DNA of 25,148 bases. Source: a virus. Positions within the stretch are counted from its first letter, which is position 1, and every line of letters begins with the position of its first letter. The translations under genes were made by a program, and so were the position numbers. Shown here piece after piece: positions 283-6,758 of this stretch. The notes under the pieces were generated by a model. That model was not told where the DNA came from and did no database searches. It was given only the letters and a program-made list of their open reading frames with translations. The stretch covers positions 1 through 25,148 of IMG/VR virus record IMGVR_UViG_3300037217_000006; one strand, written 5' to 3'.

Positions 283-354
283 TCAGGATGCGAGGTGCTG
301 CCCCCCGGGCCTCCCGGTTCCAAGCCGGGTGCTCTACTGCTGAGCTACATCCTG
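283..354 (-). tRNA. tRNA-Pro (anticodon UGG), unusual elbow
   Basis: This is a 72-nt cloverleaf on the minus strand. The acceptor CAGGATG/CATCCTG pairs at 7 of 7 positions and the discriminator is A283. The D-stem GCTC/GAGC is perfect, as is the anticodon stem CCCGG/CCGGG. The anticodon loop CTTGGAA has U33 and anticodon UGG. The T-stem CGGGG/CCTCG has one G-U pair. Two features are odd: the T-loop is GGCAGCA instead of a TTCRANY-type loop, and the 7-nt D-loop AGCAGTA lacks the G18-G19 pair that normally docks into it. The CCA end is not encoded. Confidence 0.72.
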
Positions 355-1910: not shown

Positions 1911-3719
1911 CTACAACGCCAGTGCGTCCCGTTCCCGTGCCACCGTCAACGTCTTCACCTGGGAACGCAACGCCAGAAGCTCGTCATGCTCGGCGGTGAA
2001 CGCCCGCTCCAACCGCTCAAGGCGGGATTCGATCGGCACGGCCACGACACGGCCGGCGGCAACCAGTGAAACGACCCGCTCGCCTCGGATGCCTTCCCTG
2101 ACGGCGCAGAAGTCCAAGATCTCGGCCGACCCGGAAGCGGCCAACGCACGAAGGATCGGGAAGCCGGGGACAGGCACGGCGAGCACGGCCACCAGTTCAA
2201 GGAAGCCGCCGCGATCACGCCAGTCGCCAGACAGCGAAAGGGCTCGCACCTGGCGAATCTGCTCGGCGGTCAGGTCGGAGCGGAGCGCACCGGCCACCCA
2301 CGGCCCGAAGTCGTCCTGTCCGGCCCGCACGTCGGCCCACTGAAACGCCCCGTAGCCGCCGTCGTAGTGGGCGACGGCCTCGGCTGCGCCCATCGAAGTC
2401 GGAGCATGACCGCAACCGGCGGTCAACTGTCCGACGCCTTCCACGATCTCGCCGTCGTCGCACACGACACCCTCGCCGGTCAGATAGAACGCGTAGTTGC
2501 TCCGCGACTTCGGCGGCTTGACCTTCTTGCCAGTGAACCCGGTGTGAGCGCATTCCCACCAGGCGACATGGCCAAACACCTGGCCGTCCTTCGTGATCGT
2601 CAACGGGCAGGCGTATGACTTGCCGTCCTCTTGGAGCACCATCCGGGGATCGCCGACATGGAAGCCGGGATCGGTGAACCAGGTCCGCGACGGCCGCAGC
2701 GGACCACCGGCAGCGGTGACGGGCATCAGCGACGGGATCGACGGCGGTGCGTTCTCGATGGCGATCGGGGAGTCCGGCAACGGCACGTCCTTCAGGGTGA
2801 TGCAGCACATTTGCAGGGCGGGCATCGGGACGATGGTCATGGCGCCCAACGTGAACGACGACATCTGGAACCATTCGTCGTAGAAACAGTCGTCGTCGTA
2901 ATCCCCGCCGCCGGTGGAGATCATGATCGCGATCCACTCGCCCTCGCAGTCGCGGGGGTCGATCGAGATGAACCGCTGCGTCTGCTCCTCCACCATCAGC
3001 TCGGCCAACTGTCCGTTGGGGTCGGACCCGAACATGCCTTCGGAGTAGGTGAAGTTGAGGCCCTGCGCCATCTGCGGGGCACACGAGTCGACCCGCCCGC
3101 AGGTCACCGCACCCCAATGGCCACCCTCGTCGGCAACCAGGAGACGGATCGAGATGGGCATGTCTGGGTAGTGCGTGGACCCGGGCAGCAACTCCCGGCC
3201 GTCGTCAGTCCTGATCCCCTCAGCGCATGCATAGGCGTGCCACGGAGCCGGTGTCACCGTCCCATCGGCGGCAACGGAGGCGGTCAGCCCCTTCTTGGCC
3301 CGCAGCGCTTCCCATGCCTCCTGGCCGCCCGCCTGCTCGAACGCGGAGGCCACCATGGCTGACAGCTTCTCGGGATCGGTGACCTCGTTGGCCCCGTCGA
3401 GCCGCCGCCGTTCCGTCTCCCCCAACCGGGCCAGCGCCGACGCCGTGACCGCTGCTGCGTGGTGGTTGTGGGACGATGACCCGGCGTGGGAGTGGAAGTG
3501 CTCATGGCTGGAATCGCCGCCTTGGCTCCCGTAGGTCGAATGCGGGTGGGAGTGCTTGCCGGTGAATCCTTTGTGGATCGCCGCCAGCGCTTCGTCCTGC
3601 GTTTCACGTGGAACGTCGATCGGAGCAGCGGCGAGACTCTGGCGCAGTTCAGCCAGCTCCGCCTCACGTGCCGCCTCGTCGGCGACCGGATCAGTGACCA
3701 GGGTTTCGGTGTCAGACAA
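1911..3719 (-). CDS. Capsid maturation (prohead) protease-type structural protein, 602 aa
   Basis: The start is a TTG at 3719, placed 8 nt after a perfect AGGAGG. Residues 1-50 are acidic and helical. A His-rich segment at about 56-87 (HSHPHSTYGSQGGD, then repeated His) is typical of actinophage capsid proteases. Residues about 160-300 match that protease fold, with a GGHWGAV segment (H201 a candidate catalytic His) and an ISIDP segment (S252 a candidate nucleophile), followed by GAMTIVPMPA. Residues about 378-525 form the associated domain with GHVAWWECAHTGF, FGPWVAGALR, SGDWR and VPVPGFPIL. The last 60 residues look coiled-coil. In this family the protein cleaves scaffold and capsid subunits during head maturation. 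I place the family by motif memory; the catalytic residues are inferred. The major capsid gene is not in view and may lie beyond the left edge. Confidence 0.82.
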   Translation of the reverse strand: MSDTETLVTDPVADEAAREAELAELRQSLAAAPIDVPRETQDEALAAIHKGFTGKHSHPHSTYGSQGGDSSHEHFHSHAGSSSHNHHAAAVTASALARLGETERRRLDGANEVTDPEKLSAMVASAFEQAGGQEAWEALRAKKGLTASVAADGTVTPAPWHAYACAEGIRTDDGRELLPGSTHYPDMPISIRLLVADEGGHWGAVTCGRVDSCAPQMAQGLNFTYSEGMFGSDPNGQLAELMVEEQTQRFISIDPRDCEGEWIAIMISTGGGDYDDDCFYDEWFQMSSFTLGAMTIVPMPALQMCCITLKDVPLPDSPIAIENAPPSIPSLMPVTAAGGPLRPSRTWFTDPGFHVGDPRMVLQEDGKSYACPLTITKDGQVFGHVAWWECAHTGFTGKKVKPPKSRSNYAFYLTGEGVVCDDGEIVEGVGQLTAGCGHAPTSMGAAEAVAHYDGGYGAFQWADVRAGQDDFGPWVAGALRSDLTAEQIRQVRALSLSGDWRDRGGFLELVAVLAVPVPGFPILRALAASGSAEILDFCAVREGIRGERVVSLVAAGRVVAVPIESRLERLERAFTAEHDELLALRSQVKTLTVARERDALAL

Positions 3720-4020: not shown

Positions 4021-5577
4021 CTAGAACGGCCACCCTTGCTCGCGACCCATCTCCAACAGAGGCATGAGCCGGAAGGTGGCATCGGTGAACCCGCCGTAGG
4101 AGTGGACGCCCGCCTGACCGTGCGGGGCCATCGCCACCCGGTACCCGGCGAGGTTGAAGACGTGCAACTGCGGGACGTTGGCGAGCGAACCCGCCTTGTT
4201 GTCGTGTCCCTGCTCATCGGTGAAGATCACGACCCGCTTGTGTCCGTCGTAGTGGGCCTGTACCGCCTGCTGGATGAACGTGGCGTGGCCCAACTGACCG
4301 GACCGCTGAAGATTGGTGATGAACTCGGTGACCTTTAGAACCGATGAACCCGGGGCGATGTCGAGCCGGGCCGACCCCTGACCGAAGCACACCAGGTCGG
4401 CCTGGTAGGAACCGCCCTTCTTCCACAACGCGGCGCCGAACAGTGCGCCGATCTCGTAGCGGGCCATCTGAGATTTGGCCGACACAGCAGAGGTCATTGA
4501 CCCGGACAGGTCCACCAGGATCAGCGTCCGACCGTCGAACGCTGGAATGTTCTTGACGGAGTGATCCAGCGCCCGTTCAAGAGCACGACCCCACGTCAGG
4601 TTTCCAGCGTTGGCCTTGTACGCCGAATAGAAGCGATACGGGAACTGGCGGGACTTGGCAACCTCATCGGGGTCTGACAGGCGGCCGATGATCCGGTCCT
4701 TCAGGTCTTCGGGGATGCCCTTCGCCTCGAAATTGCGGAGGTTGCGGAGCAGCGCCATGTACCCCATCTGCGGAACGACACTCGCCCACGCTTCAGCATC
4801 CATGCCACCGGGCAACCATCCGGCGAGGCGTTCCCACGACCATCCGGCCGCGGCCACGCGACCATCGCGGAGCGCGGAGCGCCGCTGATCCTCGGGCAGT
4901 CCCATGAGCGCCAAGTCGAGCGGGATCGTCCGTAGGCCCTCACCGATGCGGGGGTCGGCCCGCTTGTGGCGCTTGTCGAGCAGGTAGCGGAACAGTTCGG
5001 ACTGCCAACCCGCAGATGGGACCGGATGGACCAGGTCGATGACATCGCCGAAACGGATCGCCTTGTCCTGTCCGTCGTAGCGCAGCGAGGCCCGCTCCGT
5101 GTAGAGCCGCTGGCAGGCGTCCGCGATTCCCCGCTTCAGCGCGGCGGGCAACTTGCGGCCGTGCGTGGCGTGCCAGTAGCCGAGGATCTCGGCGGGCTCG
5201 TCGGCACGCTGCAACGCCGAGGATACGACGGAGCGACCATTCGGGCCACCGGCATAAACGTACTCGGCTGCCATGACGGTCGACGCGGACCGCATCTGCA
5301 TCGTGTCACGCAGGAACGGCACGAACCGACGCAACCAGTCGGAGTCGGTGCGAACCACGTCGGCGATCAGGTCCCGGTACCGCTTGTCACGGTCGGCCGA
5401 CGCCTCGTAGAACGTCGCCTCGCCCACCATGTTGGTCACAGCAAGCAGGAATAGCTCGGACTGAGCGTCCCGCAAGCGGCCGTCGCCCCCCTCGTAAGTT
5501 GGGGCAACCTGCTCGGCGACTCGGATCGGTCCCTGTGCGGGGACTCGGATCGGTGCGGTACCGCTGAACTTTGCCAT
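4021..5577 (-). CDS. rsr: Ro60/TROVE-domain RNA-binding protein (Rsr), 518 aa
   Basis: ATG 5577 follows AGGAG by 8 nt. An upstream in-frame extension to 5715 would run through the Y RNA region and is rejected. Residues about 35-345 form the helical-repeat TROVE ring (for example ELFLLAVTNMVGEATFYE, then RSASTVMAAEY and GYMALLRNLRNFEAKGI). Residues about 350-515 are a von Willebrand A-like domain with an intact MIDAS motif DLSGSM (D356, S358, S360) and FTDEQG (D454). The length fits Ro60 family members. Ro60 proteins form a ring that holds misfolded or Y RNAs. In bacteria, Y RNA can tether Rsr to the exonuclease PNPase. Three Y RNA-like elements lie directly upstream, which strongly supports a ribonucleoprotein function. 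Confidence 0.93.
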   Translation of the reverse strand: MAKFSGTAPIRVPAQGPIRVAEQVAPTYEGGDGRLRDAQSELFLLAVTNMVGEATFYEASADRDKRYRDLIADVVRTDSDWLRRFVPFLRDTMQMRSASTVMAAEYVYAGGPNGRSVVSSALQRADEPAEILGYWHATHGRKLPAALKRGIADACQRLYTERASLRYDGQDKAIRFGDVIDLVHPVPSAGWQSELFRYLLDKRHKRADPRIGEGLRTIPLDLALMGLPEDQRRSALRDGRVAAAGWSWERLAGWLPGGMDAEAWASVVPQMGYMALLRNLRNFEAKGIPEDLKDRIIGRLSDPDEVAKSRQFPYRFYSAYKANAGNLTWGRALERALDHSVKNIPAFDGRTLILVDLSGSMTSAVSAKSQMARYEIGALFGAALWKKGGSYQADLVCFGQGSARLDIAPGSSVLKVTEFITNLQRSGQLGHATFIQQAVQAHYDGHKRVVIFTDEQGHDNKAGSLANVPQLHVFNLAGYRVAMAPHGQAGVHSYGGFTDATFRLMPLLEMGREQGWPF

Positions 5578-5611: not shown

Positions 5612-5733
5612 GGATTTCCAAGCGAGAACCGATTCAATCCCCATGAGATTGCATTAGCCGGATTTGAACCGGCTCGTCGCCCGAAGGCGACCACTGAAGT
5701 ATGGGAACTGGTCACTTCGCTTGGTACAAATCC
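5612..5733 (-). ncRNA. Y RNA-like element 3 (next to rsr)
   Basis: The ends pair in a long stem: GGATTT (5733-5728) with AAATCC, and CCAAGCGA (5724-5717) with TCGCTTGG (5625-5618). A 3-nt GTA bulge separates the two helices. Just inside lie the shared elements CGAAGTG (5719-5713) and GGTTCTCG (5630-5623). The enclosed module has a perfect six-bp hairpin with a cUUCGg tetraloop (5691-5676), a perfect T-arm GCCGG-TTCAAAT-CCGGC (5673-5657) and a stem CAATC/GATTG (5651-5635). No D-arm is seen, so this is a degenerate tRNA-like module. The bulged terminal helix is the expected Ro60-binding site. Confidence 0.75.
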
Positions 5734-5872
5734 ACCCGAGAACCGGGTCGATCCCGCTGCTTACTACCGGCGCTCTACCGAACTGAGCTATCCCCTGACC
5801 AGGTCGGGGGAGTTGGATTTGAACCAACGACCAACGGTTCCAAAGAAGTACGCGAGACCTGCACTTCGGGTG
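5733..5872 (-). ncRNA. yrlA: YrlA-type Y RNA with permuted tRNA-like domain (element 2)
   Basis: The terminal stem CACCCGA (5872-5866) pairs with TCGGGTG (5739-5733) and carries the shared CGAAGTG and GGTTCTCG elements. GGTC (5859-5856) pairs with GACC (5749-5746). The inner module is tRNA in permuted order: variable loop (5833-5829), perfect T-arm GTTGG-TTCAAAT-CCAAC (5828-5812), acceptor strand TCCCCCG (5811-5805), a closing loop of 7 nt, acceptor strand CAGGGGA (6 of 7 paired), TA, and a perfect D-arm GCTC-AGTTCGGTA-GAGC (5788-5772). The anticodon-like stem CGGT/ACCG continues into TACT/AGTA with an 8-nt kink. An acceptor stem without a free CCA end and a kinked anticodon stem are published YrlA features. 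Confidence 0.88.
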
Positions 5873-5881
5873 TTCAGAACT

Positions 5882-5965
5882 CTCGGCGAGAACCAAGCGG
5901 GGCCGGGCACTGGCCGAAGCCAATCCGCAGGAAGGAAGTAACCGACTGCCCTACACTTCGCCGAG
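5882..5965 (-). ncRNA. Y RNA-like element 1 (promoter-proximal)
   Basis: CTCGGCGA (5965-5958) pairs perfectly with TCGCCGAG (5889-5882). The shared elements CGAAGTG (5960-5954) and GGTTCTCG (5894-5887) sit at the inner end of this stem exactly as in the other two copies, but the stem sequence differs and compensates on both sides. The enclosed part has GGGC/GCCC pairing potential and a hairpin ATTGGC-TTCG-GCCAGT (5924-5909) with a cUUCGg tetraloop. It has no T-arm, so it resembles a simple Y RNA without the tRNA mimic. Confidence 0.68.
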
Positions 5966-5997: not shown

Positions 5998-6027
5998 ACA
6001 GTACAGCGAACTCCAGCGAACTGTCAA
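5998..6027 (-). promoter_or_regulatory. Sigma70-like promoter for the Y RNA/rsr unit
   Basis: TTGACA (6027-6022) is followed by an 18-bp spacer and TACTGT (6003-5998), which predicts transcription from about 5991, just before element 1. The -35 box contains the TGA stop of the MuF-like gene. The spacer region carries the 9-nt direct repeat CAGCGAACT (plus strand 6004-6012 and 6014-6022) phased by 10 bp, which could be an operator for a regulator such as the XRE protein at 3788-4018. Confidence 0.6.
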
Positions 6028-6758
6028 GCGGATTCCTGGTCCTGCGTCCCATCGTTGTAGCTGAGCCAGCACCGGCAGTTTTCCGTGTTGCCCAGCGAAC
6101 CGTCAGGGTCCCCCGGATACAGCAACTGCTCGCCGCCGACCGTGAAGTAATCGCCCGCCGGAACCTCCTGACCATCCGCCTCGGCATGATCGTCGCGAGT
6201 CCGATCGTCGTCCGTGGCCTTCCACACCACGGTGTAGGTGAGAACCGACTGGTTCGAGGCGTGCGTGATCAGATCCGACGTGACCCAGTTCCCGACCGCC
6301 GACGCCATCCTCCCGGCCATGTCGCCCACCCAACCAGCCCCGGAGTCCAGGGCGTCATCGACGGCGGCCAGCGGATCGTCCTCGCCTGCCGCGTTCGCCA
6401 GTGCTTGCCCCAACCGTGGGCCTGCCGACAGCGCCGTATTCACGATGTGGGTCACCATCGCGGCCGTAGCAACCCCGGCGCCGGCCGTGACCGCGGGCGG
6501 GAGGTTCGCCTTCGCCTGGCGTACCAGGGTGGCTACCGCGGCGGTGGCGGCAGGTGTGACATGCTTGGCGACCGACTTCGCCCACGCTGTTGCCGACCAC
6601 ACCGCGGCGGGTTGGACGGCGGAGGCGGTGAGCCCGTGGGAACGCATCGCCGTCTTCATGCCACGACGCTGATCGTCCACCGCCAGCGCGACCGCTTTGG
6701 CTATCTGCGCTTCGGCATCGGTGATGGCCTGCTCAGGGATCAGGCGACGGCTCGTCAC
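6024..6758 (-). CDS. MuF-like minor head protein, 244 aa
   Basis: The GTG at 6758 overlaps the upstream TGA by four bases. The N-terminal two thirds are long Ala-rich helices. Residues about 178-232 hold the Mu gpF-like C-terminal core: VVWKATDDDRTRDDHAEADG, then a strand with GGEQLLYPGDP and ENCRCWLSY. In the family this domain follows the portal gene and the protein is a minor component of the head or portal vertex, sometimes involved in capsid assembly or DNA injection. Its position downstream of the portal gene fits. The end of the gene overlaps the promoter of the Y RNA cluster. Confidence 0.85.
   Translation of the reverse strand: MTSRRLIPEQAITDAEAQIAKAVALAVDDQRRGMKTAMRSHGLTASAVQPAAVWSATAWAKSVAKHVTPAATAAVATLVRQAKANLPPAVTAGAGVATAAMVTHIVNTALSAGPRLGQALANAAGEDDPLAAVDDALDSGAGWVGDMAGRMASAVGNWVTSDLITHASNQSVLTYTVVWKATDDDRTRDDHAEADGQEVPAGDYFTVGGEQLLYPGDPDGSLGNTENCRCWLSYNDGTQDQESA

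Follow-up and report, generated by a model that had tools for sequence, protein, structure and literature searches.

The permuted architecture of YrlA has reportedly been published already, in Chen 2014 and Wang 2018, and phages are said to be among those listed in Chen 2014. A tRNA-like elbow within a longer RNA is also familiar from tmRNA. According to PMC8394870, Rsr sits on the basal stem of YrlA, PNPase is bound by the tRNA-like domain, and the RNA is a substrate of both DusA and TruB. PMC7790460 proposes that the YrlA tRNA-like domain competitively inhibits an anticodon nuclease, and PMC7824862 mentions that some jumbo phages have TROVE proteins and that the partner in cellular organisms is tRNA-like. 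As far as the available text of the literature searched goes, no answer was found to what Ro/Y RNPs do for phages.

The window analysed here is a whole stretch of 25,148 bases, positions 1 to 25,148 of IMG/VR record IMGVR_UViG_3300037217_000006. Judged by its gene content, which includes matches to the large terminase subunit, to a portal and a MuF-like head protein, and to a capsid maturation protease, it is a tailed-phage fragment; most of the terminase and protease matches come from actinobacteriophages. On the minus strand, three Y RNAs and then rsr form a cassette flanked by a MuF-like gene (6024-6758) and a protease gene (1911-3719):

5882-5965, minus strand: Y1, a Y RNA whose effector is a plain hairpin lacking any tRNA piece (shared motifs; outer stem in the fold)
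5733-5872, minus strand: Y2, the middle Y RNA, with ends as defined by the outer stem (5' and 3' motifs; alignment with relatives; fold)
5618-5724, minus strand: Y3, a Y RNA in which a hairpin is accompanied by a T-arm (5657-5673) but by no D-arm (shared motifs; fold z −4.41; T-arm match 12.5 bits)
4021-5577, minus strand: rsr, a Ro60/TROVE protein of 518 aa with an ATG start (Pfam TROVE; solved TROVE proteins; phrog_850)

The TROVE plus VWA-type combination that marks Ro60/Rsr is present in the rsr product, which matched Pfam TROVE at 49.8 bits (cut-off 23) and VWA_2 at 25.2 bits, slightly below the cut-off of 27. An alignment to solved TROVE-protein chains spans both the TROVE and the VWA-type parts (1.9e-33), and the protein also matched phrog_850 (RNA-binding protein) and 92 phage records. 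The gene is full length, on the same strand as Y2 and 156 bases downstream of it, which places Y2 beside an rsr/Ro60 gene.

Because the cassette sits between the MuF-like and protease head genes, on the same strand, its position suggests late expression together with the virion genes. In Microbacterium phage Megan, just two small hypothetical genes separate the same two head genes. No head-gene setting of rsr was seen among the 10 flanking ORFs scanned in the IMG/VR relatives L002-L004 (relative loci are given L numbers throughout); the flanking ORFs were integrase-like and DNA-binding in L003, tail-fibre-like and endonuclease VII-like in L004, and the rest had no assigned function. A search for viral relatives with the protease ORF of the window found none. 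By eye, TTGACA, 18 bases and TACTGT at 5998-6027 (minus strand) form a candidate promoter just upstream of Y1, overlapping the MuF-like stop codon; a strict upstream sigma-70 scan returned nothing, and this site fails it too. The single terminator-like match of the upstream scan was rejected as the Y2 acceptor hairpin read from the opposite strand. Elsewhere in the window, positions 283-354 (minus strand) matched Rfam tRNA at 51.9 bits, with a non-canonical T-loop and without an ARAGORN call.

The three Y RNAs have both ends in common. The 5' motif CGAAGTG-N-TACTTC is found in Y1, Y2 and Y3, with three matches in the window vs. 0 in 100 shuffles. The 3' motif GGTTCTCG likewise has three window matches, all inside the three Y RNAs, and because 1.4 matches are expected by chance in the whole window, the weight of this motif lies in its register. 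Both motifs align with the ends of Y RNAs adjoining rsr in relatives (the full-length alignment, A3, comprises 12 Y RNAs only). In Y2 these end motifs, common to the relatives, Y1 and Y3, would form the putative Rsr-binding outer stem; its upper part, by eye GGTC/GACC, is short and is paired differently in the MFE.

Within this frame, the strands of Y2 run in the order anticodon-like 3' strand, variable loop, T-arm, acceptor 3' strand, closed loop, acceptor 5' strand, U8A9, D-arm, position 26 and anticodon-like 5' strand. The elements were placed as follows:

5766-5838, minus strand: permuted tRNA-like domain (covariance model R1, 58.9 bits, E 2.5e-18; Rfam YrlA 5768-5836, 32 bits; pair counts)
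5834-5838 and 5766-5770, minus strand: anticodon-like stem, 3' strand ACCGU and 5' strand CCGGU, 4/5 pairs (segmentation and comparison; absent from the whole-RNA MFE)
5829-5833, minus strand: variable loop UGGUC, five bases, with C48 at 5829 facing G15 of the D-loop (15-48 covaries in relatives)
5812-5828, minus strand: T-arm, five pairs GUUGG/CCAAC, loop UUCAAAU (pair probabilities 0.95-0.99)
5791-5811, minus strand: acceptor-like stem, 3' strand first, UCCCC at 5807-5811, loop at 5796-5806, 5' strand GGGGA at 5791-5795, closed and without CCA (pair probabilities 0.85-0.97)
5789-5790, minus strand: U8A9 (segmentation)
5772-5788, minus strand: D-arm, four pairs GCUC/GAGC, loop AGTTCGGTA, also written AGUUCGGUA (pair probability 0.65)
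5771, minus strand: position 26, a G (segmentation)

An earlier, sequence-only reading had claimed this strand order and these loop sizes (T-loop TTCAAAT, variable loop of five), which proved exact on segmentation; the strand, which it left unstated, is the minus strand. Segmentation also confirmed the closed acceptor without CCA that it described. In strand order Y2 corresponds to a tRNA whose anticodon loop has been cut open and whose acceptor has been closed, with no free CCA, and its acceptor helix consists of five pairs, then a C.A mismatch, then three more pairs in the MFE. Numbered by analogy with tRNA, Y2 has the letters that make tertiary contacts in a canonical tRNA: U8, A14, G15 with C48, G18G19, U54U55C56 and A58. 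Since U54, U55, C56, A58 and the D-loop GG are present, and YrlA is a reported DusA/TruB substrate, it is plausible from the letters of Y2 that its modification sites are retained.

Y2 was compared with its counterparts in 24 relative loci, each carrying a relative of the window's Rsr and comprising 4 IMG/VR contigs, 11 phages picked from the 92 matching phage records and 9 bacterial-genome contigs. Twenty-five permuted sites including the window were segmented, the L005 sites and the T-arm-only L002:2750 standing outside this table. Each site was required to have at least 4/5 T-stem pairs and 4/4 D-stem pairs; TA before the D-stem, a D-loop GG and long acceptor pairing were favoured. L012:2301, which is in the wrong register and has an extra T-arm between the acceptor strands, was excluded from the 24-site counts, and alignments A1 and A2 exclude L004:2777, L012, L015 and L023 (long or off-register loops). 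U8 was found in 23/24 sites and A14, the D-loop GG, TTC and A58 each in 24/24, with T-stem, D-stem and some loop-letter counts being conditioned by the choice of sites. The 15-48 pair and the anticodon-like stem played no part in this choice. Position 15-48 is G-C in 12 of the 24 sites, A-T in 11 and G-G in 1; in the MAFFT alignment of 21 domains it is G-C in 11 and A-U in 10. Across these 21 sequences, both-sided changes occur in 17/22 pairs, standard pairs make up 94.1% of 461 pair cells vs. 67.1% when shuffled, and the covariation score is 0.733 vs. 0.209 shuffled and at most 0.183 slid. The anticodon-like stem is paired in 88/120 cells, a value reached by 0/2000 whole-strand shuffles (mean 49.6), where shuffle counts among relatives of shared ancestry are not probabilities.

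Covariation of the 15-48 pair in relatives is evolutionary evidence that the three-dimensional elbow, beyond its hairpins, is kept. The exit of both ends through the anticodon-like stem, as the sequence-only reading had it, is upheld by the comparison as well, but in Y2 itself the stem is weaker than implied, with 4/5 pairs and none of them in the whole-RNA MFE. The YrlA-type circular permutation is supported by the Rfam YrlA match, the held-out R1 model and the pair counts of the 21 domains, and we are highly confident that Y2 is a YrlA-type Y RNA with a tRNA elbow.

The relatives include several other arrangements. Loci encoding the Rsr proteins closest by identity (48-50%; L017, L018, L019 and L021) have no Rfam YrlA match, L017 comprising just 66 bases upstream of rsr. 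In L018 and L019, a Y-like RNA was recognised by eye within the 620 bases upstream of rsr, with a conserved, different effector that has no T-arm-then-D-arm order. One of four units upstream of rsr in L005 (IMGVR_UViG_3300045836_000108, positions 2695-2830) has an in-order tRNA core (D-arm, anticodon arm, T-arm) between Y RNA end motifs. ARAGORN calls a tRNA-Thr there at 2736-2811 and Rfam tRNA gives 40.2 bits for 2740-2805; here a tRNA piece that is not permuted sits in the frame of a Y RNA. When this in-order domain was searched in phages, the matches listed were mainly annotated tRNAs. The Y RNA of Gordonia phage Rabbitrun (L012:2225-2351) has an additional T-arm after the first one and before the D-arm, which looks as though the closed acceptor loop had received a fragment of a tRNA. 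In Streptomyces phage Kela (L013:1681-2433), the permuted Y RNA is separated from rsr by a gene annotated as an RNA ligase.

Taking the locus and the comparison together, we think it likely that Y2 is a phage YrlA-type Y RNA and a partner of Rsr. Comparison supports an effector end that folds into a complete tRNA elbow, with the T-arm beside the acceptor-like helix, the D-arm, and the contact positions 8-14, 15-48, 18-55 and 19-56; the circularly permuted strand order sends both ends through the anticodon-like stem into the predicted Rsr-binding stem. For Rsr binding, enzyme action and a host tether we infer the following. The phage Rsr would bind the outer stem. The elbow could be acted on by TruB, Dus and other tRNA-modifying enzymes of the host, and through it Rsr may be tethered to a host protein that handles RNA, a part played by PNPase in the characterised bacterial case; in infected cells the tethered Rsr might then gate structured RNA, or feed it to the host protein. 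The same Rsr ring would also take up Y1 and Y3, with their different effector ends. By analogy with YrlA, the phage Rsr should be bound by Y2, whose tRNA elbow should then face a host protein, and a tether of the PNPase type is offered tentatively, as something that may or may not hold here.

The elbow might instead serve as a tRNA-mimic decoy which, lacking a cleavable anticodon loop, sequesters anticodon nucleases or tRNA-directed enzymes and protects translation, with Rsr mainly stabilising or delivering Y2. Consistent with a decoy, Y2 has the elbow and neither anticodon loop nor CCA, tRNA clusters occur in many rsr phages, and competitive inhibition of an anticodon nuclease by the YrlA tRNA-like domain is what PMC7790460 proposes; however, PMC8394870 describes PNPase tethering as the established role, and we consider the decoy unlikely. 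Our preferred reading remains an Rsr-bound Y2 that would present its elbow to a host protein. Phage Ro/Y-RNA loci could also be modular, with one Rsr ring, several Y RNAs and interchangeable tRNA-piece effectors (none in Y1, a T-arm in Y3, the permuted elbow in Y2, the in-order core in L005) making up a set that, during infection, would offer decoys or handles to the tRNA enzymes of the host and to defences that cut tRNA, a generalisation that seems to us quite unlikely. Neither a phage array of Y RNAs with different tRNA pieces nor the covarying 15-48 pair was found in the available text of the literature searched, which is weak evidence of absence, the main YrlA papers being outside its reach.

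Thermodynamic prediction departs from the comparison in one helix. In the fold of the whole 140-nt Y2, GGAACCG/CGGUUCU displaces the anticodon-like stem (per-pair probability 0.71-0.99 vs. 0.00), and imposing the anticodon-like stem carries an energy cost of 4.6 kcal/mol; in the MFE, the T-arm, the acceptor and the D-arm (0.65) persist. Y2 folds mildly better than shuffles (z −1.87), and the permuted domain alone has z −0.56. Because these z-scores are small, the case for Y2 rests on comparison and not on energy, and folding energy alone was dropped as proof. Y2 could adopt the MFE fold favoured by prediction, in which case its T-arm and acceptor hairpins would be real, its elbow loose and its tRNA likeness partly vestigial. 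This is very unlikely in our judgement: the relatives speak for the anticodon-like stem and for pairing of 15 with 48, GGAACCG/CGGUUCU consumes part of the 3' GGTTCTCG motif common to all three Y RNAs, and the T-arm, acceptor and D-arm are available in both folds.

The training set of model R1 consisted of 20 relatives and excluded the window, where its match covers all 71 positions. Run over 25 sources (189,978 bases), R1 gave 145 matches, the top 23 of which are Y RNA sites (the 20 training sequences and the held-out window, L023 and L015). The best match straddling two annotated tRNAs reached 47.7 bits (L008:4398-4529, tRNA-Ala and tRNA-Lys). Tandem tRNAs do give rise to false YrlA matches, and the window scores above all of them in the 25 sources. 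That Y2 is the seam of two decayed tandem tRNA genes, with the T-arm of one and then the D-arm of the next mimicking permutation, is almost certainly wrong: such seams do match YrlA models, R1 as just described and Rfam at L024:2024-2085 and 2382-2438, which straddle tRNAs, but at 58.9 bits the window exceeds every one of them, no tRNA adjoins Y2, the sequences on either side of the domain pair into a Y RNA stem whose motifs recur in Y1 and Y3, and the anticodon-like strands covary across the permuted domain, so that the seam, largely refuted by the R1 run on tRNA-rich loci, was rejected.

With Rfam, YrlA was the best family on a 601-base stretch (5768-5836, 32 bits, E 4.6e-5). This does not reach the RF02553 gathering cut-off of 69 bits, and Y2 is outside the curated Rfam YrlA set. 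Rfam YrlA matches lie near rsr in 19/24 relative loci (4/9, 10/10 and 5/5 in three batches), with a best score of 47; because every one of these matches is also below 69 bits, the score fails to separate the window from its relatives. With the same model, 7/14 control genomes match at E <= 0.001, none of them over the cut-off, and weak YrlA scores are therefore unspecific.

Y2 lacks the features of a canonical tRNA, in which the 5' acceptor strand comes first, the 3' end is free and the arms are in order. A covariance model scoring it as a normal split tRNA, named in advance as the outcome that would speak against permutation, did not appear: Rfam tRNA covers the T-arm stretch 5812-5832 only, at 13.8 bits. 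The prediction that tRNA finders miss or misplace such a domain was borne out by ARAGORN, which reported 0 tRNA genes and no tmRNA in the whole window and called a 'tRNA' overlapping the permuted domain in 6/20 relative loci scanned (L004, L008, L010, L011, L014 and L023). Deposited tRNAs overlap the permuted domain in VanLee (L011:2126-2197, tRNA-Arg), GiJojo (L008:2269-2343, tRNA-Arg), Alone3 (L010:2274-2347, tRNA-Ser) and Frankenweenie (L014:2245-2335, tRNA-Pro). These four annotations are probably spurious, and tRNA annotation in sequenced phages thus overlaps Y RNAs.

YrlA (Rfam RF02553; Salmonella YrlA, PDB 6CU1 according to PMC8394870) resembles Y2 in its order of T-arm, closed acceptor and D-arm, in its exit through the anticodon-like stem and in its place beside rsr, and the Rfam alignment of YrlA has the same D-loop, T-loop and five-pair acceptor. 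Y2 differs from YrlA in scoring 32 bits against a 69-bit cut-off, in being phage-borne, in its 5+3-pair acceptor with a mismatch, in its longer D-loop (nine bases) and in belonging to a three-RNA array. In Streptomyces, Gordonia and Arthrobacter phages (BRock, VanLee, Atuin and others), the Y RNAs that precede a Ro-like gene have both the outer-stem motifs and the permuted domain of Y2. The Rsr proteins of these phages are 35-41% identical to that of the window; in most of them rsr lies among tRNA genes or small genes, whereas in the window it lies between head genes. Like the tRNA-like domain of tmRNA, Y2 carries an elbow inside a longer RNA, but its acceptor is closed and without CCA. The permuted architecture is known from bacterial Y RNAs, and Y2 adds a phage example rather than another kind: a well-supported case, in a phage, of a permuted strand that forms a tRNA elbow.
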